Source of the DNA: Hymenobacter sp.
Lineage (GTDB): Bacteria > Bacteroidota > Bacteroidia > Cytophagales > Hymenobacteraceae
Assembly (NCBI GenBank): GCA_025354605.1
Contig: JANXMN010000209.1
Coordinates: 1 to 34,524 of the forward strand
Direction of reading: 5' to 3'
Length of the DNA: 34,524 bases
The notes under the pieces were generated by a model. The model ran no database searches. It was given only the letters and a program-made list of their open reading frames with translations, and was not told where the DNA came from. The translations under genes were made by a program, and so were the position numbers. Of this stretch, positions 9,886 to 29,897 are shown in pieces (within the stretch, counting starts at the first letter, position 1; every line of letters begins with the position of its first letter).

Positions 9886-12259
9886 ATGCCCATTCAGAAT
9901 AATTTATTGGCTGCCTGCTCTGGCTTGCCGGCTTGGCTGCGTCGGCTGGTCCTGCTGCTGCTGACCGGGCTGACGGCCGCCAGTGCCATGGCCCAGCCCG
10001 CGCCCACCCGCACCCGACCCGCCGCGCCCGATACCGTGGCCCACGACGATGCCCACCGCCTCGAAGTGGCCTACACCACGCTGAGCGGTATTTCGGGCCA
10101 GGTGCGCTATGTGTTCGACTCGCGCGAGGTGGCCGAGGAGCTGCCCGACATCGCCGAAAACCTGCACGCCATCCGGCACAGCGTGGAGGAAACCGGGCAG
10201 GTGGTCGACATCAAGCAGCTGCAAATGTGTCAGCTCATGCTCGGCAATATTCAGGAGCAACTGGCGGAGTGGCGCACGGCCCTGGGCGGGGCCCACGAGG
10301 CCCTCGAAGGCATGCAGGCCCGGCTGGTGGGCCTGGCGCATCCGCCCATGCGGCCGGCGGCGCACGATGCGGCGGCCCGGGCCCTGGCGCACGCCGACTC
10401 GGCCCTGCAGGCGCGGCAGCAGCGCATCGGCGGGCTGCTGGCCAAGCGGTTTGCCCGCACCCGCGAGCTGCAGACGCAGGTGGCCGCCAACTATATTCAG
10501 ACCCTGGAACTGCAGGACGAGGTGGGCGACCAGCTGCGGCGCTTCGGGCGCGGCACCATCAAGGCGGCCTTTCCGCCACTGTGGGCGGCGCGGCCCGTGC
10601 CGCCGCCCCCCATCGACCACGATGCCCTCGACGACGAGCGGTACAAGCAGGAAATTATCGGCTACTACTTCGCCCACAATTGGGATAACTGGGTCTTCAT
10701 GGTCCTGATTGGGCTGGTGTTCTACGGCTGGGTCAGCTTTAACTACCGCCGCGTGAAAGCCCAGACGCTGGCGCTGGAGGAAAATTTTCGCTACCTGCGG
10801 CCGGGGCCGCTGGCGGCTACCGGGGTGGTAATGTTCAGCCTGGCACCGGCTCTGGAGCTGCACCCGCCGCCGGTGTACCTGGCGCTGCTGCAGGCGCTGC
10901 TGCTGCTGGCCCTCACGGTGGTGTTTGCCCGCAGCTGGGCGCGGCCGTTGTTTCGGTACTGGCTGGGGCTGGTGGCGTTCGTGGTGGTGCTAACCCTTAC
11001 CAACGCCAGCGCCGACAGCGGCCTGGGCGCCCGCTGGGGGCTGCTGGTGCTGAACGTGCTGGCCGTGGGGCTGGGGGGGCTGCTGCTGTGGCGGCTGCGC
11101 GAAACCATGGCCTTGCTGCGCTTCCTCATTCCCGTAACCTGGCTCTTTATTGGGTTGAATGGGTTGGCGGTGGTCGGCAACGTGCTGGGGCGGCTGAGTT
11201 TGGCCAAGCTGTTCAGCACAGCGGCCATTTTCGGGCTCACGCAGGGGATTGGGCTGGCCGTGTTCGTCGAGCTGTTCACCGAGGCCTTTCACCTGCAGAT
11301 TCTGGGCAGCCGCTCGGGCGAGGGCCGGGCCGTCAGCTTCGATTTCGACCAGATTGAGAAGCACCTGCTGCGCCTGCTCACGGGCGTGGCGGCGGTGCTG
11401 TGGCTGCTGGTGTTCACCTCCAACCTCAACGTGTACACCAGCCTCTACGCCGGGCTTGAGCAGCTGCTCACGACGGCGCACTCGCTGGGCAGCACCAGCT
11501 TCACGCTCGGCAACATCCTGCTGTTCTTCTTCATTCTTTTTGTGTCGGCGCAGCTGCAGCAGTACATCGGCTACTTTTTCGGCGAGGTGGGCGAAGACGC
11601 CAGCGCCGAAGCCCGGCACCGGGGCTCGTGGCTGGTGGCTGGTGGCGCTGCGGCTGCTGCTGGTGGTGGTGGGCTTCGCGCTGGCCACGGCCGCCACGGG
11701 CCTGCCCCTGAGCAAAATTGCCATCGTGTTTGGGGCGCTCAGCGTGGGCATTGGCCTGGGCTTGCAGAGCATCGTGAATAACCTGGTGTCGGGCATTATC
11801 CTGATTTTTGAGCGGCCGTTTCACGTGGGCGACTTCATTGAGGTAGCCGGCAAGTCGGGTCGGGTGCTCGATATTGGTATCCGGTCCAGCAAGCTGGCCT
11901 CGCTCACGGGCTCGGAAATTATCCTGCCCAACGGCGACCTGCTCTCGCAGCACGTCATCAACTGGACGCGCACCAACGACCACATTCGCGTCGACCTAGT
12001 TCTCAAACTGGCCCCCGGCACCGACCTGCAAACCGACCTGCAAACCGCCCGCTCCCTGATTGAGCAAGAGGTGATGGCCAGCCCCTACACCATGCACACG
12101 CTGCCGCCCGAAATCCTGCTCAGCAGCGTGAACGGGCAGGAATACGAGTTGAAAGTCTTGTTCTGGGTCACTAATATCCGGCAAGAGCAGCTCACCAAAA
12201 GCGAGATTCTGGCCGGCATCTACCGGCGCTTCACGGCGCAAGGGCTGCTGCTGAGCTAG
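9886..12259 (+). pseudogene. MscS-family mechanosensitive channel, frameshifted
   Basis: The gene reads in one frame from the ATG at 9886 up to about 11635, then in the +1 frame to the stop at 12259. Frame one gives a signal peptide (ending ASAMAQ), a helical periplasmic domain, and a series of membrane helices. The second frame gives the MscS pore and beta domain: LSKIAIVFGALSVGIGLGLQ, then FERPFHVGDFIEV and GSEIILPNGDLLS. The break is an exact 7-bp tandem duplication (11629-11642); removing one copy restores SWLVALRLLLVVV and an ORF of about 788 residues. As written, translation in frame one stops at 11781 without the channel domain. A sequencing error or a phase-variable switch are both possible. 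Confidence 0.88.
11629..11642. repeat. Tandem 7-bp duplication (TGGCTGG x2) causing the mscS frameshift
   Basis: TGGCTGG is present twice in direct tandem, followed by TGGCG. One copy would give TCG TGG CTG GTG GCG CTG CGG (S-W-L-V-A-L-R), joining the two ORFs exactly. Seven bases add one nucleotide modulo three, which accounts for the frame change seen in the ORF track (9886 frame to 11249 frame). Confidence 0.85.
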
Positions 12260-13059: not shown

Positions 13060-13323
13060 GTTCAGTGTATAATGAATCCGCAACGGCTGGCTGCGGCTGG
13101 TGGCCGGGCTGTTGGGTGCGCAGTGAGGCAGGCCGGGCGCGGGGGGTGGGCATTGCAATAGGGGAGGGTTGGTGGGCCGGCAGGTGCGCCGGGGGCACAA
13201 AGGCGTTGGCATACGTCAACGAACGGGGTTAATTACGTCTATAGCCCGCCGCAACTGGTCGAAAAAATTTCGGCCGCTGGTGGGGTTGCTCTTATTTCGT
13301 GGCCTATCAATTCTGCTACGGTT

Positions 13324-15753: not shown

Positions 15754-16981
15754 CCCCGCCGCGCTGGCCGACCCCGACCCCGCGGCCCTGGCCACCGCCC
15801 CCCTGGCGCGGCTGGAACAGATTGCGGCCCGGCTGCAGGCCCCGCTGCCGCCGTTTGGCCGGCCGGGCTTTTCGGGCGGGCAGCTGGGGCCGTTCCTGTT
15901 TCTGTTCGCCTACGCCGCCCTCATCGAAGGGGCTGAGGAGGCCGCGGCGGCCGCCCAGCGCCAGCTGCAGGCCGCCATTCAGGACTTTCTGGGGCTGGCT
16001 CCCGGCCTGACGTATTACCGCGAGCTGGCCGAGTTCGGCAGCGTGCTGCTCTACTTGCAGGAGCAGGGCTACCTCGACGAGAGCGTGGAGCCGTTGCTGG
16101 AGCAGGTCGACCGCCGGGCCGTGCACGGGCTGGAGGCGCTGGCCGCCCAGCAGCAGTTCGACCCTTTTGTGGGCTATCTGCCGCTGGCGCACTACTTTTT
16201 GTGGCGCCACGCGGCGGCGGCTAGCCCCGGCAGTACGGCCATGCTGCGCCTAGCCGTGGATACGCTGCTGCGCGACTACCAGCCCGGGGCCGACGGCACC
16301 ACGGGTTTCTGGTTTTCGGGCCTGTTTGGCCAGCGCCAGATTTACCTGAGCTGGAGCCACGGGCAGGCCGCTATGATGCTGTTTCTGACGCAGCTGCTGG
16401 CCGCCGACCTGCCCTACCGCCGCCCCGAGCTGCGGCAGGTGCTGGCCGGGGCCGCCCGCTACTGCCTGCTGCCGCACGCCCACACCGGCCGCAACCGCTA
16501 CCCCGACATCGTGGACCAGCCCGGGGCCTCGAACACGCTGAACCTGTGCTACGGCGACCTGGGCATTGGTTTTGCCCTGCTGCAGGCCGCCCGGGCCCTG
16601 GCCGATGCCGACCTGGACCGGCACGCCCACCACACCCTGGCCCTGGCCGCCGCCCGCCGCGACCCCGCCGCGTGCAACGTGCACGATGCCTCGTTCATCT
16701 ACGGGGCCAGCGGCAACGCCATGCTGTTCAAGGCCCTGCAGCAGGATTTTCCGGAGCTGCCGGGGTTTGGCGAAGCCGCCGCCTACTGGTATGGGCAGGC
16801 GCAGGCCCTGTGCCAGCATCCCGGCCAGGTGGCCGGCTTCCGGGGGCACTACAACCAGCAGGTGCCCAGCGCGCACTACTCGCTGTTTGAGGGCCTGGCC
16901 GGCGTGGGCTTGGCCCTGCTCGAATTCGAAGTTGATTCCCTTCACTTGCTGCCCTTGTTGGGCTACCCCGCTTTCTCATGA
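15731..16981 (+). CDS. LanC-like protein lacking two zinc ligands (degenerate cyclase)
   Basis: A 416-aa alpha/alpha-toroid protein of the lanthionine synthetase C-like family. It keeps the LanC landmarks WSHGQAA (His210) and LCYGDLG (Cys273). Where LanC has the Cys-His zinc pair, it reads SFIYGASGNA, with Ile323 and Tyr324 instead of Cys and His. Spacing from Cys273 to this site is 50 residues, exactly the same as Cys275 to Cys325 in the intact neighbour, so this is a true substitution rather than misalignment. NisC-type enzymes bind zinc through Cys, Cys and His, so this copy should not bind catalytic zinc normally. It overlaps both the receptor gene (23 nt) and the next lanC (ATGA). Likely a partner, scaffold or leader-binding subunit; this is inference. 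Confidence 0.85.
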   Translation: MKKDASNSPAALADPDPAALATAPLARLEQIAARLQAPLPPFGRPGFSGGQLGPFLFLFAYAALIEGAEEAAAAAQRQLQAAIQDFLGLAPGLTYYRELAEFGSVLLYLQEQGYLDESVEPLLEQVDRRAVHGLEALAAQQQFDPFVGYLPLAHYFLWRHAAAASPGSTAMLRLAVDTLLRDYQPGADGTTGFWFSGLFGQRQIYLSWSHGQAAMMLFLTQLLAADLPYRRPELRQVLAGAARYCLLPHAHTGRNRYPDIVDQPGASNTLNLCYGDLGIGFALLQAARALADADLDRHAHHTLALAAARRDPAACNVHDASFIYGASGNAMLFKALQQDFPELPGFGEAAAYWYGQAQALCQHPGQVAGFRGHYNQQVPSAHYSLFEGLAGVGLALLEFEVDSLHLLPLLGYPAFS

Positions 16982-18198
16982 CCACGGACACCCTTGTTTC
17001 GCCCCAGGCCGCTACCATCGCGCAGGGTCTGCGCATTCTGGCCCAGATGGCACCCCCCGCCGTAGCCGACCTGTCGCTCTTCACCGGTAAGCTCGGCCAC
17101 GTGCTGCTGTATGCCTACGCCTACAAGCACAGCGGCGCCGACGCCCATTGGCAGCGCCTGACCGAAACCCTGGACGACGTGCTGGCCCAGCTGCAGCCGT
17201 CCTCGTCGGCCCGCCTGCTCACGCAGCCGGGCCTGCTGCCCAATCTGGCAATGGTGCTGCAGGTGCTGCGTACCGACGACATTGCCGACATCGAGCTGGG
17301 CGAAGAAACCCTGACGCAGTTCGACGAGGTGGTGGGCAAGCAGGCGCTGGCCTACATCCGGGGCCGCAACATCGATTTCCTGTACGGGGCCACCGGGGCG
17401 CTGCACTACCTGGGCACCCGGGCCGCCGGGCGGCCGGTGGTGGAAGCCACCCTGCGCGACCTGCTGGCCGCGCTGCTCGAAACGCGGGTGGAAGACGAGC
17501 GGGGCATTCGCTTTTTCAACGCCCACATCAACCACCTCAACGGCAATACCGACATCAACCTGGGGCTGGCCCACGGGCACTGCGGCCTGCTGCTGGTGCT
17601 GCTGCAGCTGCACGAGGCCGGCCTGCTGCAGGATGAAATCGCGCCGCTGGCCGGGCGCATGGTCGACTACCTGCTGAGCCTGGAGCTGCCGCCCGAGCCC
17701 GAAAAAGGCCGGGTGTCGTTTTTCCCGGCCCGCCACGAAGACGGCCGGCCCCTGCACGACCCCCTGAACCGCCAGGCCTACAACAACCGCATGGGCTGGT
17801 GCTACGGCGACCTGAACGTGGTGCAGGTGCTGCACCAAGCCGCGCGGATGCTGGGCCGCCCCGAGCTCGACGCCCTGGCTTGCCGGGTAGGCGCGCACAC
17901 CTGCACGCGCCGCGCCGAGTTCGACTCGGGCATCGACAGCGCGCATCTCTGCCACGGCTCGGCCAGCCTGGCCCTGTACTACCGCCAGCTGTATGCCGCG
18001 CAGCCGCTGCCCTGCTACCGCGAGGCCCACGCCTACTGGAAGCAGGAAACCCTGGACCGGCTGCCCGCTGCCTACGAGCAGGGCGACGAGGCATTTCAGG
18101 CCTCGGGCCTGCTCATGGGCCTGCCCGGCCTGCTGCTCTGGCTGATTACCGAAGAGCTGGGCGAGCCGGTGGCCTGGCCGCAGCTTTTTCTGCTGTAG
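16978..18198 (+). CDS. lanC: Lanthionine synthetase C family protein (LanC cyclase)
   Basis: A 406-aa LanC, which adds Cys thiols to dehydroalanine or dehydrobutyrine to form (methyl)lanthionine rings in the cytosol. All zinc-site residues are present: His199 in LAHGHCG (the catalytic-acid position), Cys275 in GWCYGDL, and Cys325-His326 in LCHGSAS. The start overlaps the upstream LanC-like stop in ATGA, so the two are translationally coupled and probably made in similar amounts. The substrates are presumably the Cys-containing precursor cores at 27390-28542. C-terminus is the usual LMGLPGLLLWL of the toroid. Symbol used generically. Confidence 0.95.
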   Translation: MTTDTLVSPQAATIAQGLRILAQMAPPAVADLSLFTGKLGHVLLYAYAYKHSGADAHWQRLTETLDDVLAQLQPSSSARLLTQPGLLPNLAMVLQVLRTDDIADIELGEETLTQFDEVVGKQALAYIRGRNIDFLYGATGALHYLGTRAAGRPVVEATLRDLLAALLETRVEDERGIRFFNAHINHLNGNTDINLGLAHGHCGLLLVLLQLHEAGLLQDEIAPLAGRMVDYLLSLELPPEPEKGRVSFFPARHEDGRPLHDPLNRQAYNNRMGWCYGDLNVVQVLHQAARMLGRPELDALACRVGAHTCTRRAEFDSGIDSAHLCHGSASLALYYRQLYAAQPLPCYREAHAYWKQETLDRLPAAYEQGDEAFQASGLLMGLPGLLLWLITEELGEPVAWPQLFLL

Positions 18199-18251: not shown

Positions 18252-19199
18252 ATGAAAGACTTAGCCATTGGACTGCTGGATTTTGGCGTGCGCCGCCTGT
18301 CGATGAACAGCCTGCTGCGCGTGACCGACCTGCTCGACTACGCCGCCCGGGCCGACCAGCTGGGCTTTTCGCGGCTCTGGCTCAGCGAGCACCACATAGG
18401 GTCGGCGCGCCAGGCCTGGGGCAGCCCCACCGTGCTGCTGCCCCTGCTGGCGGGCATGACCAGCCGCATTCGGGTGGGAGTGGCCGGCGTGCTGCTGGGC
18501 ATTCACCAGCCCTACCACGTGGCCGGCGACTACAAGATGCTGCACAACCTGTTCCCGGGCCGCATCGACCTGGGGCTGGCCAATGGCGGCGTGATGCCCA
18601 GCGTGGCCGAGCTAGCCACCGGCGTGGCCGGGATGAACATGCCGCAAGCTTTTGCGGATAACCTGGAAAAGCTGTTTTTCTGCCTGCGCCAGGAAGATGA
18701 GATGGCCAAGCTGGGCACCGTGCTGCCCCCGTTTCGCGGGTCGGTGCCCGACACCTGGGCCCTCACCACCAACATGGGTAAAGCCCTGCCGCGGGCGCTG
18801 CAACACGGCATGAACCTATCGCGCTCCATCTTTCACAAGGGCGCCGACCGGGAGTATCACAAGGCTGCCATGCAGGAGTTCCGCGAGGAGTACCGGGAGC
18901 GGCACGGCAAATACCCGCGCACCAACCTGGTGGTGGCCGGGGCCGTGCACCACACCACGGCCAAGGCCAAGGCGGCGGCGGCCCCCGTCGAGAGCGGCTA
19001 CGACTACAACGTGGTGGGCACGCCGGCCCAGTTTCACGAAACCCTGCTGCAGTTTCAGGAAGACTATGGCTACGACGAAATCATTATTCAGAATGTGGCC
19101 CTGCGGCCCAAAGACCGCGCCCTGGCCCTGGAGCTCTGGAGCGAAATGTTCGACCTGAAAAACCGCGCCATGCTTCCCCTCACCAACACGGTTGCCTAA
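18252..19199 (+). CDS. LLM-class flavin-dependent oxidoreductase
   Basis: A 315-aa luciferase-like (bacterial luciferase TIM-barrel) protein. Start is the ATG at 18252 (MKDLAIGLLDFG), 53 nt after lanC; the ORF-track start lies inside lanC. Typical family phrases are FSRLWLSEHHIG near residue 40, a hydrophobic strand RIRVGVAGVLLG, FPGRIDLGLANG near 100, and GTPAQFHETL near 255. It most likely binds FMN. In other lanthipeptide clusters LLM enzymes (LanJC group, as described for lexapeptide) reduce dehydroamino acids with F420H2, giving D-residues. Whether this one is a reductase or a monooxygenase, and on which residue it works, cannot be told from sequence. Its place between lanC and the exporter supports a tailoring role. 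Confidence 0.9.
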   Translation: MKDLAIGLLDFGVRRLSMNSLLRVTDLLDYAARADQLGFSRLWLSEHHIGSARQAWGSPTVLLPLLAGMTSRIRVGVAGVLLGIHQPYHVAGDYKMLHNLFPGRIDLGLANGGVMPSVAELATGVAGMNMPQAFADNLEKLFFCLRQEDEMAKLGTVLPPFRGSVPDTWALTTNMGKALPRALQHGMNLSRSIFHKGADREYHKAAMQEFREEYRERHGKYPRTNLVVAGAVHHTTAKAKAAAAPVESGYDYNVVGTPAQFHETLLQFQEDYGYDEIIIQNVALRPKDRALALELWSEMFDLKNRAMLPLTNTVA

Positions 19200-19322: not shown

Positions 19323-21509
19323 ATGTCTGCTTTCCCCTATTACCGGCAGCTGGAGACCATGGACTGTGGCCCCACCTGCCTGCGCATGATTGCGCGCTTC
19401 TACGGCAAAAATTTCAGCCTCGAAACCCTGCGCCACAAAACCCGGCGCAGCCGCAGCGGCGTGTCGCTGCTGGGCATCAGCAAGGCGGCCGAGCAGATTG
19501 GCTTCCGCACCGTCGGGGCCAAGGTGAGCTATAGCGCGCTGGAAGGCACGGCCAATCTGCCCTGCATCGCGCACTGGAACCAGGACCATTTCGTGGTCAT
19601 CTACAAAATCAAGCGCGGGCGGGTGTACGTGGCCGACCCCGGCCGCTCGCTGCTCTCGTACCCGAAAAAGGAGTTTCTCGAAAAGTGGCAGATAGCCCAA
19701 ACCCCCGCCGAGGAAGGCATTGTGCTGTTCGTGGAACCCACGCCTTCGTTCTACGCGGTGGAGGAAGAAATCGACTCCTCGATTGGGGTGGCCAAGATTG
19801 TGGCCTACCTGCAGCGCCACCGCAAGTTGTTCTGGCAGCTGTTGCTGGGCCTGCTGGTGGGGGCGCTTATTCAGGGCCTGCTGCCATTTTTTACGCGGGC
19901 CATCGTCGACATCGGCATCAGCACGCGCGACGTGCGCTTCATCTACACTATTCTGGCCGGGCAGCTGCTGCTGTCGGTGGGCCAAACGGCGGTGGAGTTT
20001 ATCCGGGGTTGGATTCTGCTGCATATCAGCACGCGCATCAGCATCGCCATCCTGTCCGACTTTCTGATGAAGCTGCTACGGCTGCCGCTGTCGTTTTTCG
20101 ATGCCACCATCACCGGCGACATCATGCAGCGCATCAACGACCAGCGGCGCATCGAGTCGTTTCTCACCGGCACGCTGCTCAACACCCTGTTTGCGGTGAT
20201 GAGCCTGCTGGTGTTCGGCACGGTGCTCTTCAGCTTCAGCCGGCCCATTTTCGTCATCTTTCTGGCCGGCAGCCTGCTCTACATGGGCTGGGTGCTGTTT
20301 TTTCTGCGTTTCCGCAAGAAGCTTGACTACAAGCGCTTCGACATCGCCAGCCAGTCGCAGAACAATATTATGCAACTGGTGGCAGGCGTGCACGAAATCA
20401 AGCTCAACGACTGCGGCAGCCACAAGCTCTGGGAGTGGGAGCGCATTCAGGCCAAGCTGTTTCACTTCAACACCGAGTCGCTCTCGCTGAGCCAGTACCA
20501 GCAGGTGGGCGCGTTTTTCCTCAACCACACCAAAAACATTCTCATCATCTTTTACGCGGCGCAGGCTGTGCTGCAGGGCACGCTGTCGCTGGGCGAGATG
20601 CTGGCCATTCAATTTATCGTGGGGCAGCTCAACCTGCCCGTCGAGCAGCTCATTCAGTTCAGCCAGAGTGCGCAGGATGCCAAAATCAGCGTCGACCGCC
20701 TCAACGACGTGCACCGCGTGGCCGACGAGGAGCCCGAAGACCAGCTGCTGCTCACCCACCTGCCCGACGACAAAACCATTTCCCTGCGCGACGTGGGCTT
20801 CACCTACCCCGGGGCCGGCAACCGCGCCGTGCTCCAGGGCCTCAACTTCGATATTCCGCAGGGCAAGATAACGGCCATCGTGGGCGACAGCGGCAGCGGC
20901 AAAACCACCATCCTCAAGCTGCTGCTGAAGGTGCAGGTGCCCGAAACCGGCCGCATTGCCATCGAAGACACCGACTACAACGCCATTTCGCACGCCGCCC
21001 TGCGCAAAGACTGCGGCGTGGTGATGCAGGACGGCTACATTTTCTCCGACACTATTGCCAACAACATCATGGTGAGCAGCGAGGAGAAAAACCCCGGTCG
21101 CCTGCTGCACGCCCTACGCATGGCCAACATCGAGCAGTTTGTGAAAGACTCGCCCCTGGGCCTCAATACCAAGATTGGGGCCGACGGCAACGGCGTGAGT
21201 CAGGGCCAGAAGCAGCGCATTCTAATTGCCCGGGCCATCTACAAAAACCCCAGTTACCTCTTCCTCGACGAAGCCACCAACGCCCTGGATGCCAACAACG
21301 AAAAGGTCATCATGAGCAACCTCAACCAGTTTTTTGAGGGGCGCACCGTGGTGGTGGTGGCCCACCGGCTGAGCACCGTGCGCAACGCCGACCAGATTAT
21401 CGTGCTCCAGAAGGGCAAGGTAACTGAGCAGGGCACCCATACCGAGCTGGTGGCCCGGCAGGGGGCGTATTTTCACCTGGTGCGCAACCAGCTCGAACTG
21501 GGCAACTAA
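19323..21509 (+). CDS. lanT: C39-peptidase ABC exporter (LanT type, bifunctional)
   Basis: A 728-aa bifunctional exporter that cleaves the leader after the GG motif and exports the modified core across the inner membrane. Order: C39 peptidase (1-140) with Gln9, catalytic Cys15 in MDCGPTC, His89 in NQDHFVV and Asp105 in VADPGRS; six-helix transmembrane domain (about 160-450); ABC domain with Walker A GDSGSGKTT (about 520), signature VSQGQKQR in place of LSGGQ, Walker B YLFLDEATNALD, and H-loop VVAHRLS. It probably dimerises. The double-Gly leaders (LEGG, FFGG, AGG) encoded downstream fit this enzyme. It follows the LLM gene after the repeat-rich 123-nt gap. Symbol used generically. Confidence 0.95.
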   Translation: MSAFPYYRQLETMDCGPTCLRMIARFYGKNFSLETLRHKTRRSRSGVSLLGISKAAEQIGFRTVGAKVSYSALEGTANLPCIAHWNQDHFVVIYKIKRGRVYVADPGRSLLSYPKKEFLEKWQIAQTPAEEGIVLFVEPTPSFYAVEEEIDSSIGVAKIVAYLQRHRKLFWQLLLGLLVGALIQGLLPFFTRAIVDIGISTRDVRFIYTILAGQLLLSVGQTAVEFIRGWILLHISTRISIAILSDFLMKLLRLPLSFFDATITGDIMQRINDQRRIESFLTGTLLNTLFAVMSLLVFGTVLFSFSRPIFVIFLAGSLLYMGWVLFFLRFRKKLDYKRFDIASQSQNNIMQLVAGVHEIKLNDCGSHKLWEWERIQAKLFHFNTESLSLSQYQQVGAFFLNHTKNILIIFYAAQAVLQGTLSLGEMLAIQFIVGQLNLPVEQLIQFSQSAQDAKISVDRLNDVHRVADEEPEDQLLLTHLPDDKTISLRDVGFTYPGAGNRAVLQGLNFDIPQGKITAIVGDSGSGKTTILKLLLKVQVPETGRIAIEDTDYNAISHAALRKDCGVVMQDGYIFSDTIANNIMVSSEEKNPGRLLHALRMANIEQFVKDSPLGLNTKIGADGNGVSQGQKQRILIARAIYKNPSYLFLDEATNALDANNEKVIMSNLNQFFEGRTVVVVAHRLSTVRNADQIIVLQKGKVTEQGTHTELVARQGAYFHLVRNQLELGN

Positions 21510-21595: not shown

Positions 21596-22711
21596 ATGTT
21601 GGATAAGTCGAAGGGGTTGACGGCCCTGCTTTCCGGTACCAGCGCCAACAAGCGGGCGACGGTGCTGCTGCACATTGCCTTCTGGCTGGTGGCCTACAAC
21701 TGGTTCGTGTTTCAGAGCCGGTGGCTGAGCGGCAACCTGCACCAGGAGGCCACCACGCTCATGGCCCTCACGCGCAATGTGGTGGTGCTGGTTGTCTTCT
21801 ACCTGGTGTCCTATTGCATCAGTCCGCGCCGCTACGTGCGGCTCACCTGGCTGTTGGTGGTGCTGCTGCTGCTGTTTTCGGTGGTGGTGTACGGCTTGCT
21901 GTCGTACTACTTGCTCAACTACATCGATGTGGCGTACCCGGATATGCCGCCGTACTTTAAGAAAATGACGGCCAACATGTCGGCCCAGGGACCCTGGACG
22001 ATGTTTATCAACCTGGACGTGCTGTATTTTCACATCGTTCAGTTGATTATCGCGTTTTTCATCCCGTTCATCATCAAGGCGTTCCGGATTATCTTTCAGA
22101 CCCGCGTGCACAGCATTGCCCTGGAGAAAGACAACCTGAAGCTGGAACTGGACTTTCTGCGCTCGCAAATCAACCCGCATTTCCTGTTCAATACGCTCAA
22201 CAGCGTTTATTCCCTTATCGAGGACAAGGATAAGACAGCGGCTTCCATCGTGCTGTCGCTGTCGCACATGATGCGCTACGCCCTCTACGACTCGTCGTCG
22301 ACGGAGGTGGAGGTGGACAAGGAGCTGGCCTTCATTCAGAACTACGTCGAGATTCAGAGCATCCGGCACCGCCGCCGGCTCGACGTCGACCTCGACATTT
22401 CGCACCAGCTCGGCACCCAGCGCATTCCGCCGCTGCTGCTCATTAACTTTATCGAAAATGCCATCAAGCACGGCATCGACAAGCTGCTGAAAAAGGCCTG
22501 GATACGCATTCAGGCGTATCGCGATGACCAGGGCGCGTTTTGCTTCAGCGTCGTCAATTCCAAGCCCAGCCGCCCCGACGATGAGCACGTCGAGGGCATT
22601 GGCATCAAAAACACCCGCCGCCGGTTGAATATTCTGTACCCCAACGCGCACACGCTGCACATTCGCCAGACCGACACCCAGTACGAAATCATGCTCCGGA
22701 TATGGCAATAG
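21596..22711 (+). CDS. LytS-like sensor histidine kinase
   Basis: A 371-aa membrane histidine kinase of the LytS/YehU (His_kinase, PF06580-type) group. The N-terminal half has about four transmembrane segments (AFWLVAYNWF, VVVLVVFYLVSYC, LLVVLLLLFSVVVYGLLSYYLL, IVQLIIAFFIPFIIKAF) and no large extracytoplasmic domain. The phospho-acceptor motif is LRSQINPHFLFNTLNS, with His195, followed by the N-box LINFIENAIKHGI and a G-box GIGIKNTRRR. It should autophosphorylate and pass phosphate to the adjacent regulator, whose start overlaps its stop by 10 nt. In this context it probably senses a membrane or peptide signal linked to lanthipeptide production; the ligand is unknown. Confidence 0.95.
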   Translation: MLDKSKGLTALLSGTSANKRATVLLHIAFWLVAYNWFVFQSRWLSGNLHQEATTLMALTRNVVVLVVFYLVSYCISPRRYVRLTWLLVVLLLLFSVVVYGLLSYYLLNYIDVAYPDMPPYFKKMTANMSAQGPWTMFINLDVLYFHIVQLIIAFFIPFIIKAFRIIFQTRVHSIALEKDNLKLELDFLRSQINPHFLFNTLNSVYSLIEDKDKTAASIVLSLSHMMRYALYDSSSTEVEVDKELAFIQNYVEIQSIRHRRRLDVDLDISHQLGTQRIPPLLLINFIENAIKHGIDKLLKKAWIRIQAYRDDQGAFCFSVVNSKPSRPDDEHVEGIGIKNTRRRLNILYPNAHTLHIRQTDTQYEIMLRIWQ

Positions 22712-23439
22712 ACAAGCGGCTGACCTGTATTATCATCGACGACGAGCCGCTGGCTCAAGAGCTCCTCGAAAAGTATGCTTCGCGGCTGCCCTCGCTCGAG
22801 CTGCTGGCTATTTTCGACGATGCCGTGGAGGCGTTGAACGGCGTGGAAACCCTGCGCCCCGACGTGATTTTTCTGGATGTAAACATGCCCCAGATGACGG
22901 GCATCGAGTTCCTGCAAACTTTTGCGGCCTACCGGCCGGCGGTGGTGCTCACCACGGCCTATCCCGAATACGCCCTCGAAGGCTACGAGTACAACGTCAC
23001 CGACTTTATTCTGAAGCCCATCACGTTCGAGCGCTTCGCTAAGGCCCTCAACAAGGTGCGCGACCAGCTGCTGCCTCCCGCGCCGGCCCCGGTCCAGGCC
23101 GCCGACGCGCCCGATGGCAAGCGCATGCTGCTCATCAAGGAGAACAAGCGGTTTGTGCGGGTGGCCGTGGGCGACGTACTGTTTGTGGAGGGCATGAAGG
23201 ACTACCTGAAAATCCATACCACCAACAAGGTCATCATCACGCACATGACCATGACCAAGATGGAAAGCATGCTCGACGAGGCCAGCTTTTTGCGGGTGAA
23301 CCGCTCCTACATCGTGCAGAAAGCGGCCGTGCGGGCCATCAATGGCAACGTTATCGAAACCATCAACAACGTGGAGCTGCCCATTGGGGTGAATTACCGC
23401 GAGGTAATCCGCAAGATTACCGAGAAGGGCGTGCTGTAG
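22702..23439 (+). CDS. LytTR-family response regulator
   Basis: A 245-aa response regulator: receiver domain (about 5-120) with acidic pocket IIIDDEPLAQ, phospho-acceptor Asp59 in IFLDVNMP, conserved Thr in VVLTTAYPE and Lys in FILKPITFERF; then a Pro/Ala linker and a LytTR DNA-binding domain (about 145-245; DVLFVEGMKDYLKIHT, FLRVNRSYIV). It is overlapped by the kinase gene and forms a two-component pair with it. It likely binds promoters of the cluster, by analogy to AgrA/ComE-like regulators; no binding site could be found by eye. The stop lies 6 nt from the stop of the convergent HlyD-like gene. Confidence 0.95.
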   Translation: MAIDKRLTCIIIDDEPLAQELLEKYASRLPSLELLAIFDDAVEALNGVETLRPDVIFLDVNMPQMTGIEFLQTFAAYRPAVVLTTAYPEYALEGYEYNVTDFILKPITFERFAKALNKVRDQLLPPAPAPVQAADAPDGKRMLLIKENKRFVRVAVGDVLFVEGMKDYLKIHTTNKVIITHMTMTKMESMLDEASFLRVNRSYIVQKAAVRAINGNVIETINNVELPIGVNYREVIRKITEKGVL

Positions 23440-23445
23440 GCCCGC

Positions 23446-23910
23446 CTACCGGGCCAGGAACTTGGCCAGCAGCGACTGCCGCCGCAGCATGATGCGGGCC
23501 GTGCCCGAAAACGACGGGTAGAGGGCCGCGCCGGCGAGCGGGGCCAGCGTTATCACCACCGGGTGCTGCTGCTGCCGGGCCGTGGGCTCCACCCGGAGCA
23601 CGCGGCCCGTAAGGCGGGTGTCGCCCAGCTCGTGCACCTGCAGCTGCACGGCCTGCCCCGGGCGCACGGCCGCGTACTGCTCGCGGCCAATGGTGCCCAG
23701 CGCCAGCAGGCGGCCCGGGCCGGCAGCAGTCGGCGGGGCGGCCGCCAGGGTCACGTCAGTCGTCACAAATTCCGGGTACTGAAACCACGCCGTGAAGCCC
23801 AGCAGCACCACGAGCAGGCCGATAATTATCAGGTTGCCCCAGCGTAGCACCAGGCTGGGCCGGGTGAGCATGATTTCCTTGATGTCGTTGTGGAGGTAGT
23901 TGTCAGACAT
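23446..23910 (-). CDS. Short HlyD-like membrane-anchored protein (hairpin region missing)
   Basis: About 154 aa from the ATG at 23910 (MSDNYLHNDIKEIM); an alternative ATG two codons upstream (23916) is possible. The start overlaps the end of lanB, so it is translationally coupled. It has a cytoplasmic N-tail, one transmembrane segment (LIIIGLLVVLLGFTAWF) then a beta-strand-rich stretch ending in SGTARIMLRRQSLLAKFL, like the tail of Bacteroidota HlyD-type adaptors. The lipoyl and coiled-coil hairpin regions normally lying between are missing; usual length is 350-450 aa. It may still support the C39 exporter, or be a non-functional remnant. The ORF track extends the start into lanB without justification. 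Confidence 0.7.
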   Translation of the reverse strand: MSDNYLHNDIKEIMLTRPSLVLRWGNLIIIGLLVVLLGFTAWFQYPEFVTTDVTLAAAPPTAAGPGRLLALGTIGREQYAAVRPGQAVQLQVHELGDTRLTGRVLRVEPTARQQQHPVVITLAPLAGAALYPSFSGTARIMLRRQSLLAKFLAR

Positions 23911-26900
23911 GGGCATAGCGGACGGTGGTTGGCGGGGAGGAAACGCCCTTGCGCATGGCGAGCTGGGCAGTGTAGTGCTTGTGCAGCAGGGTGTAGAGGG
24001 TGAGTTCGTGCTGGCGGGGCTGCGAGAGCACAAACCGGTTGAGGTACATGTGCACGTAGCTGGCCAGCAGGTCGAAGCCCTGGTCGGTGGCCAGGATGCC
24101 AGCGGGGTGCCGGGCCAGAATGGTGGCCACCGCCCCCGCCCAGCGCTGCCGTCGGTCGGCAAACTCCTGCACGGCTTCCTCAGTCTCAGTCGCTGCATCC
24201 TCGATGGGGTTCAGGAAGCGCAGTAGCTGGCGGCTCTCTTTCCGGTACTTGTCGTTGAGTTGCAGCTGCAGGCCCTTATCGCCGCGAAACTCCTGGAAAA
24301 ACCCGCGGCTGAGGCGCTCCAGCAGCTGGTGCTTGTCGGGCAGGGCCAGCCCAAAGTCAGTCAGCATCTCGTCGAGGCCGCGCAGGGCCAGCAGCCAGCG
24401 GTAGGTTTCGCCCTCGTCGCCGCCCAGCAGGTTCAGCACGCGGGCAGTGGCCAGGCTGTCGTGGCCAAACAGCTCTTCCGAGGTTTCAATGTTGTCGGCC
24501 CCGTAGCGTTCCAGCTCGCGCACGTAGGTGTCGAGCTGCACCTTGTGGAGGCGGCCCTGCGCCAGGGCCGGGGCCAGGGCCTCGTTCAGCTCGTGCAGCA
24601 GCGTGCCCAAATGCACGGCCGGCGTTTCGGCCAGCTGAAAACGCAGGCGCAGATGAAACTGCGGGTCGTTGTAGCGAATAAAGAACCACTGCCGGATAAT
24701 GCCCCGCGCCCGCCACTGCTCGGCCAGCGGCAGCACCACGGCGCACAGCAGCTGGTCAAGCGATTTGGTGCCGCCGTACAGCTTCAGGTAGGCCCACTCG
24801 CTGCCCGGCAGAAACTCCCGGGCCGGGAGCGCGGCGTTGGTCCGGGCGCTGCCGCCGGCCTGGGGCCGGCCCGCCGCGTTAAACAGCGGCAGCAGCACTT
24901 CGTTGCCGAAGCGCTGGCCCTCGGGCCCCACGAAGCAGCGCTCGGGCGTGGCCAGGTACTCGGTGAGGCGCAGCACCCCGGTCTTTTCGAGCTGTTGCAG
25001 CAGCAGCTGCCGCGCTGTCGGAAAGTCGCTGTCAATCAGCAGCTCGTTGTCGTGCTCGGTCAGGCAGAAGTAGCGGGGCAGGCCGTGCGTGGCCAGGTAG
25101 GCGCGCAGCTGTTCGTCGGTAACCGGGCCGGTAGCTTTGGCTCCCACCAGCAGCTCGCGCCGGATGCACCAGCGGGCTTTGGCTACGATAATGTTCTTAT
25201 ACTCCACGCGCGGCAGGAAGGCCTGCTCGTTCAGATTGCCCCAGCTCCAGCCGGTGCCCGAATAGAGGCGGTCCTTCTGCAGGTCGCACAAAAACCGGTA
25301 CATGGGCAAGCCGGTGGTGTAGTTGTGAGCCGTGGAGAGGCGCGGTATCACCTGCTTGCCGAGGCGGCGCGAACGCAGCACCACCCGCCCCTGCCGCACC
25401 GATACCAGCAGGTCGTGGGCCGGCAGCTGCTGGTCGGCCGGCACGGTGGCGGGGCTCAGAAACGGAATTTCGTAGGCGCGCAGGTTCGGCCGCATCAGAA
25501 TGTTGCCCACCCGGGCCTCGGGCAGGTGCACCACTTCGGCATACACCACCCCGTCGGTATCGGGCTCGGCGCGGCGCAGGGTGGCCCGCACGTCGGCCAG
25601 CAAGGCCTCGTCGCCGTAGCAGAAGCGGCCCAGCAGGTTGGCCGCCGACGGCCCCGAGCACACGCCGAGCGCAAACTGAAACTGCCCGGCATCGAGCTCC
25701 CGGGCCGATTCGGCCAGCAGCGAGCCGAAGGCGTAGAGGCTGGCCGGGGTGGCCGTACCCGCGTCGGGCTGCTCGTCGAGGCCGGCCAGGTCGGCGGTGG
25801 TCAGCGCCACCACGCGCGTCTCGTCGCGCAGGGCGCGGTGGTACAGGTCGTGGGCCAGCTGCACGCTTTTCTTCCAGCTGGCGGTGGGCGTGGTGGGTTC
25901 CGGGCGCGGACTGATGCCTTCGAGCACGGGCAGGTAGTCGCCGTGGCCGGGGCTGGCGTGCCCGTAGCCCACCCCCGATTCGTTGTCGAGGGCCAGCAGT
26001 AGCGGGACTTCCTGCTCTTCAAAGCGCGCGCTGAAATCTTTGGCGAAGCGGCCAAGGTCGGGTGGCAGCTGCAGGGTGCCCAGCCGGCACAGCTCGCCCA
26101 CCTGCCCGGCAATGGTGCCCACCACCGAAGCGGCCAGCTCGTTGCGCTCGGTGTTATAGAATAAGTCGGTTTGAATCAGGTCTTTCGAACCTGATGGGCT
26201 GTACGTGTCGCTTAGCAGCTGGTGCGTTTCCTGGAAGCTGGCTACCCCGCCAGTGGCCAGCAGAGCCAGCAGGCGGTGCAGCGGAACTAGGTCGGCGGCG
26301 GGCACTTTGCCCGCCAGGCGAGCGGGCAGCCCATCGAGGTACAGCTCGCCGGTGATGGTCGGCTCCAGCTCACTCATCAGGAGCTGCGAGTCAATCAGCT
26401 GGTGCAGATATGCCCGCGCCTCCTCGCCCGAAGCGGTGGGCTCGGCCTGGCACACCAGGGCCAGCAGGTCGGTAAAAGTGCTGCCGGCGGCGGCGGCGGC
26501 CAGCAGTCCGGTCAGGTAGCTGGTGGCGGGCACCGAAGTCAGGGTGTAGCTGCGGCGCTTGTTTTTGACGGTGAATTCGACGTAGCGGAACGTGTCGCCG
26601 GTCTGGTAAAGGCTGTTATTGGGGAAATAACGCAGGTTTTCGCGCAGCGCCGGCGAGGTCAGCAGCTCCTGCACCAGCTCGCTCACGTAGTTCATGTCAA
26701 GCCGCGAATGCTTGCGCAATGCCTGGTCAGCAAACCGGATATCGGTTTGGGCACCCACCTGGCCCCGGGCGCACCCTGCAAACAGGCCGTAGGGCGTGCT
26801 GCGGGTACTCATGCGCAGCACGTACTTGTACAGCGTCAGGGCCAGCTTGTCGGCCTGTTTGGCCGAGTCGGTGCCGCCGCTGGCCAGCGCTTTCAGCAGC

Positions 26901-27118
26901 TCGGCGTGCAGCGCTGGCGAAGCCGTATAAATGGCTTCCTGGAGCAGTGGGTCGGCAAAAAAAGTCAGCAGTCGGGGCAGCAGCCCCTGCGGCGCTTCCT
27001 GCGTATCGGCGTGCAGCTGCCACACCGTTTGCACGGGCAGCAAAGGCCGCCGGAGCACATAGAAGCTTTCGGGTTCGAGTTGCAACGGCAACGCTGGCGG
27101 AGCGGAGGAAAGGCGCAT
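23903..27118 (-). CDS. lanB: Lantibiotic dehydratase (class I LanB, full length)
   Basis: A 1071-aa class I dehydratase. It glutamylates core Ser/Thr using glutamyl-tRNA and then eliminates glutamate to give Dha/Dhb. The large N-terminal domain (1 to about 760) begins with YVLRRPLLPVQTV and contains the family hallmark RMSTRSTPYGLFAG (about 100) and RLDMNYVSELVQEL. The C-terminal elimination domain (about 775-1050, SpaB_C type) shows WAYLKLYGG and WFFIRYNDPQFHLRLRF. Both halves are in one chain, unlike split LanBs. Start is the ATG at 27118 with a 270-nt gap from the last precursor gene; the stop overlaps the HlyD-like start by 8 nt. Symbol used generically. Confidence 0.96.
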   Translation of the reverse strand: MRLSSAPPALPLQLEPESFYVLRRPLLPVQTVWQLHADTQEAPQGLLPRLLTFFADPLLQEAIYTASPALHAELLKALASGGTDSAKQADKLALTLYKYVLRMSTRSTPYGLFAGCARGQVGAQTDIRFADQALRKHSRLDMNYVSELVQELLTSPALRENLRYFPNNSLYQTGDTFRYVEFTVKNKRRSYTLTSVPATSYLTGLLAAAAAGSTFTDLLALVCQAEPTASGEEARAYLHQLIDSQLLMSELEPTITGELYLDGLPARLAGKVPAADLVPLHRLLALLATGGVASFQETHQLLSDTYSPSGSKDLIQTDLFYNTERNELAASVVGTIAGQVGELCRLGTLQLPPDLGRFAKDFSARFEEQEVPLLLALDNESGVGYGHASPGHGDYLPVLEGISPRPEPTTPTASWKKSVQLAHDLYHRALRDETRVVALTTADLAGLDEQPDAGTATPASLYAFGSLLAESARELDAGQFQFALGVCSGPSAANLLGRFCYGDEALLADVRATLRRAEPDTDGVVYAEVVHLPEARVGNILMRPNLRAYEIPFLSPATVPADQQLPAHDLLVSVRQGRVVLRSRRLGKQVIPRLSTAHNYTTGLPMYRFLCDLQKDRLYSGTGWSWGNLNEQAFLPRVEYKNIIVAKARWCIRRELLVGAKATGPVTDEQLRAYLATHGLPRYFCLTEHDNELLIDSDFPTARQLLLQQLEKTGVLRLTEYLATPERCFVGPEGQRFGNEVLLPLFNAAGRPQAGGSARTNAALPAREFLPGSEWAYLKLYGGTKSLDQLLCAVVLPLAEQWRARGIIRQWFFIRYNDPQFHLRLRFQLAETPAVHLGTLLHELNEALAPALAQGRLHKVQLDTYVRELERYGADNIETSEELFGHDSLATARVLNLLGGDEGETYRWLLALRGLDEMLTDFGLALPDKHQLLERLSRGFFQEFRGDKGLQLQLNDKYRKESRQLLRFLNPIEDAATETEEAVQEFADRRQRWAGAVATILARHPAGILATDQGFDLLASYVHMYLNRFVLSQPRQHELTLYTLLHKHYTAQLAMRKGVSSPPTTVRYAHV

Positions 27119-27389: not shown

Positions 27390-27584
27390 TTACTCCTGCG
27401 TTGGCAGGCCCCGGCAGTTGACCGGGTTGCAGCTAAACGCCGGGCACGACGACTGCCCGCCCTGGGTGGTTTGTTCCGGCTGCTGCCCTCCGGCAATGGT
27501 ACTGAGTTGGTCATCATCGAGTTTGGCAATGATTTCGCGGTCCAGTAGCAAGATGCGGGATAGGGTGATTCGCTTTTTTTTCAT
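27390..27584 (-). CDS. lanA5: Divergent lanthipeptide precursor (SSCPAFSCNPVNC core)
   Basis: A 64-aa peptide. The leader MKKKRITLSRILLLDREIIA...QLSTIAGG keeps the plan of the other precursors (basic start, 'L-D-x-E-x-I-x-x-L', 'D-D-Q-L', then a Gly-Gly) but is clearly diverged, with AGG in place of EGG. The core (31 residues, QQPEQTT...) has three Cys in SSCPAFSCNPVNC and six Ser/Thr, and lacks the TNTC and CxACSCN blocks of its neighbours. It is last in the precursor array, 27 nt after the previous gene's stop. Probably a substrate of the same enzymes with a different ring pattern; inferred. Symbol assigned here by order only. Confidence 0.75.
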   Translation of the reverse strand: MKKKRITLSRILLLDREIIAKLDDDQLSTIAGGQQPEQTTQGGQSSCPAFSCNPVNCRGLPTQE

Positions 27585-27611: not shown

Positions 27612-27815
27612 CTAGCCGTTGCAGGAGCAGGCCTGGCACGAATTAATCGTGGGGAAGAAGTCGGCGGCTTCCTGCTGAACGCCACCGCCGTTGCACGTAT
27701 TGGTGCCGGCAGCCAGGCCGCCTTCGAGCGTGCCGAGCTGGTCTTCGTTGAGCTTGGCGATGGTTTCCTTGTCGAGCGACAGGGCATTATCGAGTTTGAT
27801 GGCTTTCTTTTTCAT
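27612..27815 (-). CDS. lanA4: Class I lanthipeptide precursor
   Basis: A 67-aa precursor. Leader residues 1-33 (MKKKAIKLDNALSLDKE...LEGG) end in the double-Gly cleavage site for the C39 exporter; the SLDKETIAKLNEDQ block is the likely recognition element. The core (34 aa) begins LAAGTNTC and ends SCQACSCNG, with four Cys and five Ser/Thr. Leader DNA and 5' flank are almost identical to the 28339-28542 gene, so they are recent duplicates. Preceded by the CTCCCC of the conserved upstream segment rather than an SD. Symbol assigned here by order only. Confidence 0.88.
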   Translation of the reverse strand: MKKKAIKLDNALSLDKETIAKLNEDQLGTLEGGLAAGTNTCNGGGVQQEAADFFPTINSCQACSCNG

Positions 27816-27869: not shown

Positions 27870-28067
27870 TTACACGGCATCAAACACGTTGCAGGAGCAT
27901 GCACTACACGATGCGTTAGTTTGTTGAAAATCACTGCCGTTACAGGTAAGGGTAGTTGGTGAGGCCAGGCCGCCTTCGAGCGTATTGAGTTGCTCTTCGT
28001 TGAGGCGCGAGATGGTTTCCTTATCGAGCGAGAGTGAGGTTTCGAGCTTGATGACTTTCTTCCTCAT
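27870..28067 (-). CDS. lanA3: Class I lanthipeptide precursor (Thr/Ser-rich core)
   Basis: A 65-aa precursor with leader MRKKVIKLETSLSLDKE...LEGG (33 residues) and a 32-residue core LASPTTLTCNGS...SCSACSCNVFDAV. Compared with its siblings the first block is TLTC rather than TNTC, the core has nine Ser/Thr, and the C-terminus continues four residues past the last Asn, ending in an acidic tail. Four Cys. It is the most Ser/Thr-rich member, so it could carry the most dehydrated residues. The leader begins MRKK rather than MKKK. Symbol assigned here by order only. Confidence 0.88.
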   Translation of the reverse strand: MRKKVIKLETSLSLDKETISRLNEEQLNTLEGGLASPTTLTCNGSDFQQTNASCSACSCNVFDAV

Positions 28068-28104: not shown

Positions 28105-28305
28105 CTAGCCTACCGGCCCGTTGCAGGAGCAAGCATCGCAGGAGGGGCCGGTTTGGAAGCCTTCCTCGGCCAGCCGGGCGCAGGTATTGGTGCCGCCGGC
28201 AGCCATGCCGCCTTCGAGTTGGCCCAGCTGCTCTTCGTTGAGCCGCGAGATGGTCTCCTTGTCGAGCGACAGCGAGTTTTCGAGTTTAATGACTTTCTTT
28301 TTCAT
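28105..28305 (-). CDS. lanA2: Class I lanthipeptide precursor
   Basis: A 66-aa precursor with leader MKKKVIKLENSLSLDKE...LEGG (33 residues, sharing ISRLNEEQL with the 27870 gene) and core MAAGGTNTC...SCDACSCNGPVG. Four Cys and five Ser/Thr; the central segment ARLAEEGFQTGP is unlike those of the siblings. Same Cys spacing at the C-terminal SCxACSC block as the others, suggesting the same ring topology there. Symbol assigned here by order only. Confidence 0.88.
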   Translation of the reverse strand: MKKKVIKLENSLSLDKETISRLNEEQLGQLEGGMAAGGTNTCARLAEEGFQTGPSCDACSCNGPVG

Positions 28306-28651: not shown

Positions 28652-28858
28652 CTATTGGCGGGCCGTAGTTGGCCGGGCCTGTAAATGCTGAAGGGCTTCG
28701 TCGTCCTCAATCCACCAGTAGGTGTTCTCCGGCTTTATCTCGGCAGGCTTACCACCGAAAAAGTGGTCCATTTCGACGCTGGAAAGCTGGTCGGTGGCAG
28801 CAATAGATTTTGCCGCTTTGCTCGTTAAAAAATTGAGCGCCCGCTTGATGGATTGCAT
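28652..28858 (-). CDS. Small GG-type peptide without Cys, candidate signal or precursor
   Basis: A 68-aa peptide upstream of the lanthipeptide precursors, same strand, with 109 nt to the next gene. Its N-terminal half is helical and ends LSSVEMDHFFGGK, which looks like a double-Gly processing site for C39 exporters, although the leader has no similarity to the LSLDKE leaders. The putative mature part (KPAEIKPENTYWWIEDDEA... about 30 aa) has no Cys, three Thr and is acidic and Trp-rich, so it cannot form lanthionines. It could be an unmodified pheromone read by the LytS kinase, a precursor of another RiPP, or an immunity peptide. I recognise no named family. Confidence 0.6.
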   Translation of the reverse strand: MQSIKRALNFLTSKAAKSIAATDQLSSVEMDHFFGGKPAEIKPENTYWWIEDDEALQHLQARPTTARQ

Positions 28859-29420
28859 GGAAGAAGGGAGAACTAGTGGTTAGAAGACCTTACAAATGAA
28901 TTAGTCCGTCAGACGATAAAAAAATAAAATAGACCAAGTGAAGTAAAAGTCATCTGAATAATGCCCCGTATTTCGACGAACCCGGGAGCGTTAGCGAGAA
29001 AATAAATAAAATATAACGTGTATTCGCCCCCGTAATCAAATATCAATTTAAAATATTATGGTGTGTATTATCAGCTGTTTGTCAGTTGCAGGCGGCAGCA
29101 GGGCCGAGCGTTTAGACGCCCGAGCATTCATTCCGCCGCTCGGGCTGGTTGGTATTAGCTGGCACAGATTTTCCGGCCACGAGCTACCTGTTCGTGCGTT
29201 GCGACTGCATCCCAGCGCCTTTTATAATCGCCAGCGCTTGTGAGCAGGCGCGCACGGTTATTTGAAGACAAGGGATGTCAGACAGCGGATGCTGCCGCAG
29301 TTACTTCTCGGTGCGGCTTTTGGCAGCGTAGGGCCGGAGACGAGGGCATAAAAAAAACCTGTCATTCTGCATGACAGGTCAGGGCGAATCCGGAAGGATT
29401 TTTATTTCTTAAAGCACGCG
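28859..29420. other. AT-rich gene-free stretch upstream of the precursor operon
   Basis: 562 nt with no convincing gene. The first 190 nt (up to about 29060) are strongly AT-rich compared with the surrounding high-GC DNA and should contain the minus-strand promoter of the peptide array; I cannot fix -33/-7 boxes. The 61-aa plus-strand ORF at 29058-29243 lacks homology or a start context and looks random. The rightmost part holds a terminator for the receiver gene (separate entry). Confidence 0.5.
29350..29379 (-). terminator. Rho-independent terminator of the receiver gene
   Basis: On the minus strand ACCTGTCAT pairs with ATGACAGGT around a 5-nt loop and is followed by a run of seven T (plus-strand AAAAAAA at 29351-29357). 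It lies about 40 nt past the stop of the 29421-29897 gene. Confidence 0.85.
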
Positions 29421-29897
29421 CTAAAATTTAGCCATTGTCTGCGTGACGGCATTCGCGAAGTCGTTATAAGTATACGGCTTGGTCAGTAGTTGAACGTGAG
29501 GGATGCTGACCTGAGCGACGGATTCAGGGGGGAATGCCGACGTAATAATTATGTTAGAAAAATGGGCCGCGAACAACCTCATTTCCGGGCTTATCCGAAA
29601 GTCGTTGGAGGGATTGTCCAGTAAATCCAGAAATACAATGTCCACGTCCGGTAATTCCGAAGGCGAGGTAATAGTTTCTATCAGCCATTTTATTTCGAGC
29701 CCCACGAAACGGTTGATATATTTTACCAATAACTCCTGCGCCAGATATTCATCTTCGATTATTCCGCAAGTAAACACGTGGTGGTTGGGGGAATAGTGAA
29801 AATTAAACGATGGGTAGATAGTAACCGGTGAGAGAGTACACTTCTCACATCTGCTCAGGAAGCAGAAAGGCTCAGAAAAGAGCCCTAGCGATGGCAA
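29421..29897 (-). CDS. Receiver-only response regulator
   Basis: A receiver domain with no output domain. It shows IIEDEYLAQELLVKY, resembling IIIDDEPLAQELLEKY of the cluster LytTR regulator, the phospho-acceptor Asp in IVFLDLLDN, conserved Thr/Ser in IIITSAFPPE and Lys in LLTKPYTYNDF. After that the protein stops, where LytTR regulators continue. The ORF-track start adds about 40 odd residues; a GTG at 29777 (VFTCGIIEDE) would give a lone 118-aa receiver, so the start is uncertain. It could be a phosphate sink for, or antagonist of, the LytS kinase, or a truncated regulator. It is in lower-GC DNA than the main operon. Confidence 0.8.
   Translation of the reverse strand: MPSLGLFSEPFCFLSRCEKCTLSPVTIYPSFNFHYSPNHHVFTCGIIEDEYLAQELLVKYINRFVGLEIKWLIETITSPSELPDVDIVFLDLLDNPSNDFRISPEMRLFAAHFSNIIITSAFPPESVAQVSIPHVQLLTKPYTYNDFANAVTQTMAKF

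Follow-up and report, generated by a model that had tools for sequence, protein, structure and literature searches.

A class I lanthipeptide precursor operon in Hymenobacter sp. opens with a gene for a 68-residue peptide that carries a double-glycine leader and has no Cys, raising the question of what this head peptide does at the front of a lanthipeptide cluster. The window analysed is a 34,524-nucleotide stretch, the whole 34.5-kb contig of its genome, and the gene is present in one copy. The initial annotation had described a Cys-free ORF with an EMDHFFGG-K junction heading the operon, which is present as described, and had proposed an unmodified signalling peptide. Pheromones with a double-glycine leader are textbook material for Gram-positive bacteria. 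Peptide communication of this kind is little described in Gram-negative bacteria, and the literature searched contained no worked example of a double-glycine peptide pheromone in Bacteroidota.

The head peptide and its gene cluster

The head-peptide ORF begins with ATG and encodes MQSIKRALNFLTSKAAKSIAATDQLSSVEMDHFFGG followed by KPAEIKPENTYWWIEDDEALQHLQARPTTARQ, the predicted cut falling between the two, after GG. It is the first ORF of the precursor operon and is followed by five LanAs, LanB, and a short HlyD-like protein on the same strand. The other strand carries the receptor, two LanC-like cyclases, a luciferase-like enzyme, the C39 ABC exporter, LytS, and LytTR.

28652..28858 (-): head peptide, 68 residues; found in four Hymenobacter genomes with invariant EMDxxFGGKPxE and YWW, under purifying selection
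28751-28858 (-): head peptide leader, double-glycine type, 36 residues; the Cys-free tail has 32 residues
28339..28542 (-): LanA1, class I lanthipeptide precursor (NF038153 E=9e-13; LxLxKx5L present)
28105..28305 (-): LanA2 (NF038153 E=9e-14)
27870..28067 (-): LanA3 (NF038153 E=5e-12)
27612..27815 (-): LanA4 (NF038153 E=3e-12)
27390..27584 (-): LanA5, divergent, with 3 Cys and Arg for Lys in LxLxKx5L (NF038153 E=6e-9)
23903..27118 (-): LanB dehydratase, full length, with glutamylation and elimination domains (PF04738 E=1e-164, PF14028 E=9e-65)
23446..23910 (-): short HlyD-like protein, 154 residues
13324..15753 (+): TonB-dependent-transporter-like outer-membrane protein, the receptor, with CarboxypepD_reg, plug, and barrel (PF14905 E=9e-99)
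15731..16981 (+): LanC-like cyclase 1 (PF05147)
16978..18198 (+): LanC-like cyclase 2 (PF05147)
18252..19199 (+): luciferase-like monooxygenase, LanJC-type candidate (PF00296)
19323..21509 (+): C39-peptidase ABC exporter (PF03412 E=3e-33, PF00664, PF00005)
21596..22711 (+): LytS-type membrane histidine kinase (PF06580)
22702..23439 (+): LytTR response regulator (PF00072 and PF04397)
29421..29897 (-): stand-alone receiver domain in an open frame, without a DNA-binding domain; homologous part from about 29780 down

All five LanAs exceed the NF038153 cut-off, and LxLxKx5L is found in four of them. The C39 ABC exporter, encoded in the same locus, is common to the head peptide and the LanAs. The LanJC enzyme takes its name from earlier work (PMC7268733). 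A structure model of the receptor (mean pLDDT 81) contains a plug and a barrel, and its best PDB matches are TonB-dependent transporters: PhuR, PfeA, FecA, FhuA with microcin J25, and Cir with microcin V (best E ~1e-22).

Three other features of the locus were observed. Relative to its orthologues in G025, G051, and G110, the HlyD-like protein of the window has lost ~150 middle residues in frame; G037 and G114 also have shortened versions. The stand-alone receiver, related to the LytTR receiver, has counterparts at L032 3413-3775 (-) and L034 3197-3559 (-), with 44-45% identity in H. perfusus and G110; the L032 homologue matches Response_reg at E=1.6e-5, below cut-off. This domain accompanies the cluster in three of the four genomes (in G025 the contig ends before that region) and is possibly a phosphate sink or decoy. 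Finally, a mechanosensitive-channel-like gene at 9886-12259 (+) of the window is split into two overlapping frames (9886-11781 and 11249-12259), likely by a frameshift or assembly error.

Conservation of the head peptide

The head peptide is found in 4/205 Hymenobacteraceae genomes: that of the window, G025 (H. frigidus), G051 (H. perfusus), and G110. The three orthologues are recovered with profile E-values of 1e-33 to 1e-37, and their start, GG junction, and YWW tail are identical to those of the window. Alignment of all four shows L25, S26, E29, M30, D31, F34, G35, G36, K37, P38, E40, Y47, W48, and W49 to be invariant. Each leader has every canonical C39 position (L-12, S-11, E-8, M-7, a hydrophobic [FLV]-4, and FGG), and each tail keeps the pattern KPxE...YWW[IF][ED][DE]. 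Between G051 and G110, dN/dS is 0.30 over all codons, with dN and dS of 0.07/0.28 in the leader and 0.11/0.33 in the tail; between the window and G025 the ratio is about 0.20 (0.36/1.82). Its presence in three other Hymenobacter species, together with low dN/dS, argues that the head peptide is a real gene. A class-wide profile search (395 genomes) gave only weak matches, inside large ORFs or unrelated precursors, and a search of the genome contig collection, plasmids, and the PDB gave no match beyond H. frigidus and H. perfusus.

All four orthologues head the LanA operon of the same cluster type. Homologues away from an exporter or regulator were sought, and every one lies in an exporter/regulator cluster, that of H. 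frigidus being split across two contigs of which both ends were found; the FGG junction is likewise invariant in all homologues. In H. perfusus and G110, the head-peptide gene is divergent from the receptor-LanC-ABC-LytS-LytTR operon and lies ~0.5 kb from where the receptor starts. In the window, 5.2 kb separate it from LytTR, with the precursor operon and LanB in between, so that its earlier placement next to LytS/LytTR holds only loosely. The tail, previously called acidic and Trp-rich, is acidic in the orthologues (net charge -5 to -7) but only mildly so in the window (net charge -2, pI 5.0), where it has two Trp. Cut after GG and left unmodified, the tails of the window, H. frigidus, and H. 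perfusus would have monoisotopic masses of 3833.91, 3901.75, and 3221.54 Da; the latter two are predicted to read KPEEAVSEHAYWWFEDDGTLPNSDPNSNTLFAHV and KPEEVKSDDAYWWIEEQDLSDINTLAK, respectively.

Promoter half-sites and putative LytTR control

Two promoters in the window share sequence elements.

28925..28977 (-): putative LytTR operator of the head-peptide operon, GTCGAAA-N36-GTCTANTTTA, half-sites 43 bp apart
28893..28899 (-): putative -7 element TCATTTG, 35 bp downstream of the proximal half-site
13237..13266 (+): LytTR-type direct repeat GTCTA-N16-GTCGAAAAA before the receptor operon

In a pattern search, the first element occurs once in each of the four peptide genomes, its spacing exactly kept, and in none of 11 other Hymenobacter genomes. 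At 35 bp from the second GTC, all four head promoters have a -7-like element whose last letters are ATTTG; the Bacteroidota -7 consensus is TAnnTTTG. The receptor promoter contains the half-sites of the head promoter in reversed order, 21 bp apart, with T[AC]nTTCG at the same 35-bp offset. This 21-bp direct repeat is present in 10/10 genomes with LytS/LytTR of this type, preceding a different gene adjoining LytS in G087, and a stricter form of it is found in 4/110 other Hymenobacter genomes. The sites bound by LytTR regulators are repeats of 9-11 nt with 11-13 nt between them (PMC4847170), and autoregulatory direct repeats are described for LytTR regulatory systems (PMC6193735). The 43-bp spacing of the head promoter is unusual, at twice the usual LytTR period, and no middle half-site is conserved between its boxes. 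The half-sites common to both promoters place the head peptide within the putative LytTR regulon. The simplest reading of the sequences is that LytTR controls both the head-peptide and the receptor operons, with binding predicted at both operators.

The head peptide as a candidate autoinducer

We propose, with confidence that is moderate at best, that the 68-residue ORF encodes an unmodified, secreted peptide with a double-glycine leader, most likely the autoinducing signal of the lanthipeptide cluster. Cleavage behind GG by the C39 ABC exporter would free a Trp-containing, acidic peptide of ~32 residues, which the exporter would then secrete; both steps are predicted from the leader. The TonB-dependent receptor in the outer membrane and the LytS kinase would sense the exported peptide. 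Phosphorylated LytTR would then bind the half-sites before both operons, raising the peptide, LanA, LanB, exporter, and sensor together. The points counted in support are the fixed head position, canonical C39 leader, conserved tail with low dN/dS, presence of a C39 ABC exporter in the cluster, shared half-sites, and a peptide that has neither Cys nor LxLxKx5L and no conserved Ser/Thr in its core. Two more are an association of Cys-free peptides with LytTR in clusters of the family and the resemblance of the receptor model to the peptide- or microcin-binding FhuA and Cir. Either LytS or the receptor is a candidate sensor, adjacency to LytS being no proof that LytS reads the peptide. With this receptor, the putative regulon includes a way for peptides to cross the outer membrane, which, judging from the receptor model, the head peptide may use.

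The LanAs of the same operon could equally be the inducer; nisin, the inducer of its own system, is a lanthipeptide precedent. The unmodified signal of the initial annotation is therefore supported in part: the shared half-sites, invariant leader, and cluster linkage speak for it, and the equal candidacy of the LanAs, together with six genomes that contain LytS/LytTR without the peptide, speaks against it. A wider scheme can be drawn, which we advance tentatively and consider rather unlikely as a whole. It would be peptide quorum sensing in a Gram-negative bacterium: an unmodified pheromone, exported through C39, would be taken back across the outer membrane by its own TonB-dependent receptor and read by LytS/LytTR, switching on lanthipeptide production, with receptor-only relatives eavesdropping. 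The autoinducer proposal names a concrete peptide, exporter, sensor, and operator, and two species, H. frigidus and H. perfusus, for testing, and it offers a possible trigger for silent Bacteroidota lanthipeptide clusters.

LytS/LytTR in genomes lacking the peptide

Six Hymenobacter genomes (G049, G046, G103, G087, G048, and G078) contain the same LytS/LytTR and operator with neither the peptide nor lanthipeptide genes, and the receptor lies beside LytS in all of these except G087. LytS therefore did not need the head peptide and is not strictly tied to it. The peptide-less module could be either an ancestral sensor recruited by the cluster or the remnant of a lost cluster. Sequence divergence was also compared. 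Between G051 and G110, the head peptide is the least conserved gene (84% identity) and LytS is 99% identical, so no peptide-LytS co-divergence is visible. The N-terminal (sensor) part of LytS shares 53-69% identity within the peptide group, the near-identical G051/G110 pair set aside, and 33-44% between peptide and non-peptide groups. This divergence fits a changed ligand but is non-discriminating, as most non-peptide LytS proteins are equally far from each other.

As a separate observation, LytS is broken in two receptor-only genomes (L147-L148, L149-L150). In G048 it is split, with ~1 kb between the pieces, and in G078 the N-terminal part is missing and an extra ORF lies nearby, which suggests decay.

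Alternative functions of the head peptide

Of the other functions considered, the head peptide could be an unmodified secreted effector, either a class II-like bacteriocin or a lanthipeptide partner, with the lanthipeptides themselves inducing. It shares its operon and exporter with the LanAs, has two Trp in the tail, and is the fastest-diverging gene between G051 and G110, as expected in an arms race. The gene is nonetheless under purifying selection, the tails of the head peptides as a group are acidic (net -2 to -10), and no bacteriocin family in Pfam or NCBIfam scores above cut-off for it. Known pore-forming class II bacteriocins are mostly cationic. We regard the effector function as unlikely.

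Improbable to a greater degree is a modified, non-lanthionine RiPP whose tail would be a substrate of LanB, of the luciferase-like enzyme, or of some enzyme encoded elsewhere, with Trp or Asp/Glu chemistry as examples. The head peptide does sit among RiPP enzymes, and its conserved YWW and acidic residues may resemble the sites of some RiPP enzymes. An LxLxKx5L motif is reported for Bacteroidetes class I lanthipeptide leaders (PMC7268733); this LanB-docking motif is absent from all nine head peptides and the g5 peptide. The tail core has no conserved Ser/Thr for dehydration, and the window proteins scanned include no radical-SAM, ATP-grasp, or other RiPP enzyme domain. The lack of Cys, a LanB docking motif, and a radical-SAM gene among those proteins disfavours a modified RiPP, an option raised in the initial annotation, and on sequence grounds the head peptide is probably unmodified.

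Two specific precursor classes were tried and rejected. A class I lanthipeptide precursor (LanA) does not fit by its features, the head peptide having no match to the NF038153 leader model, no LxLxKx5L, and no Cys. For a radical-SAM-modified RiPP of the TIGR04149 family, the best score is 11.7 bits against a cut-off of 25 bits (E=0.19 for the G025 orthologue), and no radical-SAM partner was found among the window proteins scanned.

A similarly low likelihood applies to an accessory or regulatory role at the exporter or in the periplasm, for instance as a C39 competitor, chaperone, or anti-kinase peptide, with no signal passing between cells. The canonical leader has E/D-8 where the window LanAs have Q-8, and the genus g5 peptides are encoded immediately before the C39 ABC gene, both of which would suit such a role; the conserved tail past GG exceeds the needs of a leader mimic. 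An immunity factor for the lanthipeptides, also suggested earlier, draws on cluster position and is highly improbable given the complete, canonical C39 export leader, the lack of an obvious membrane segment or lipobox in the sequence, and the absence of the head peptide from most lanthipeptide clusters.

Comparison with known systems

The candidate autoinducer bears a resemblance to Gram-positive autoinducers of the ComC/SilCR/PlnA type, for which the sil system was taken as comparison (PMC2766830). Shared features are the canonical GG leader (in all four orthologues), a C39 ABC exporter and a membrane kinase with LytTR regulator in the locus, direct repeats before both operons, and a bacteriocin regulon. 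By sequence, LytTR-type repeats also precede the peptide gene, with a 43-bp rather than a 21-bp period. In contrast, the Hymenobacter host is Gram-negative, the peptide heads the precursor operon instead of lying beside the kinase, the tail is acidic, and a TonB-dependent receptor belongs to the regulon. The kinase also differs, being of the PF06580 (His_kinase) LytS type, and no sequence similarity was found. A ComC-type system would be expected to have an HPK10-type kinase that binds the peptide and is kept only together with it. We do not class the system as a ComC-type member, because LytS/LytTR is retained without the peptide in six genomes and recognition of the peptide is a prediction, but by analogy it probably works like one.

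Other known systems resemble parts of the locus. The surrounding cluster matches Bacteroidetes class I lanthipeptides with LxLxKx5L-GG leaders (PMC7268733) in its LanAs, full LanB, LanCs, C39 ABC exporter, and LanJC-like enzyme, whereas the head peptide has neither the motif nor Cys and shows no similarity to NF038153. In LytTR regulatory systems (PMC6193735), direct repeats likewise lie near the promoter of the LytTR regulator itself, but the regulator is paired with a membrane inhibitor; here a kinase/response-regulator pair occurs with an outer-membrane receptor. The TIGR04149 GG-leader radical-SAM peptides of Bacteroidetes are similar in leader shape and match the head peptide weakly, but the match is below cut-off and no radical-SAM partner was found in the window.

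Similar peptides in other clusters

Unrelated Cys-free GG peptides occupy equivalent positions in other Hymenobacteraceae lanthipeptide clusters, several behind LytTR-like repeats. In G106, G073, G072, G018, G041, and G053, the LanA operon opens with a member of a highly acidic GGG[GD]D family, which in G053 lies on another contig but again before a LanA; G023 has a solitary relative. In four of these genomes (G106, G073, G018, and G041), the head gene lies behind a 21-bp GTC/GTG direct repeat. In G114, the Cys-free GG peptide has a similar leader, LSxxDMDxxLGG, and such repeats lie before the receptor gene, upstream of the peptide. In the genus g5 clusters G164, G186, and G146, the gene immediately before that of the C39 ABC exporter encodes a Cys-free GG peptide.

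Among clusters with recognisable LanAs, a Cys-free GG peptide is found in 12/16 with LytTR nearby and 1/17 without, counts that were made by hand on non-independent, phylogenetically confounded lineages. Collapsed by hand to lineages, the figures are 5/9 and 0/16. For some of these clusters, the LytTR is that of a neighbouring second LanB cluster, and the counts left out LanB2-type clusters with LytTR but no recognised LanA. Cys-free GG heads were nearly absent from a LanB survey outside Hymenobacteraceae, which suggests a trait limited to the family and one other genome of the same order.

Further peptides were seen in passing. Another genome of the same order, G492, has a LanB cluster in which a Cys-free GG peptide (L160 4248-4472, +) precedes a LytTR gene by ~0.6 kb. 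Genus g5 has a second Cys-free GG peptide, MKKLFNFKSKRKGLADFYELSVEEAEANQLSGGFKEYKPTIYNADKHQRVQIKVSHLLSGMEEMI, just before the THWPTT peptide (L099 about 11885-12090, -; equivalents in L102 and L103). LanB2-type clusters (L126 near 18390-18540 in G114; L095 in G018; L096 in G053) are another conserved kind of LanB cluster, in which LytS/LytTR and a LanC-like gene also occur. Between LytS and LanC they contain a short, Thr/Ser-rich, mostly Cys-free ORF, such as MKNLNTPAKFKVTKTVVARFSKPQASNNFGGSTTTTVDTTTSILSTLIML, possibly a dehydrated, ring-free LanB product.
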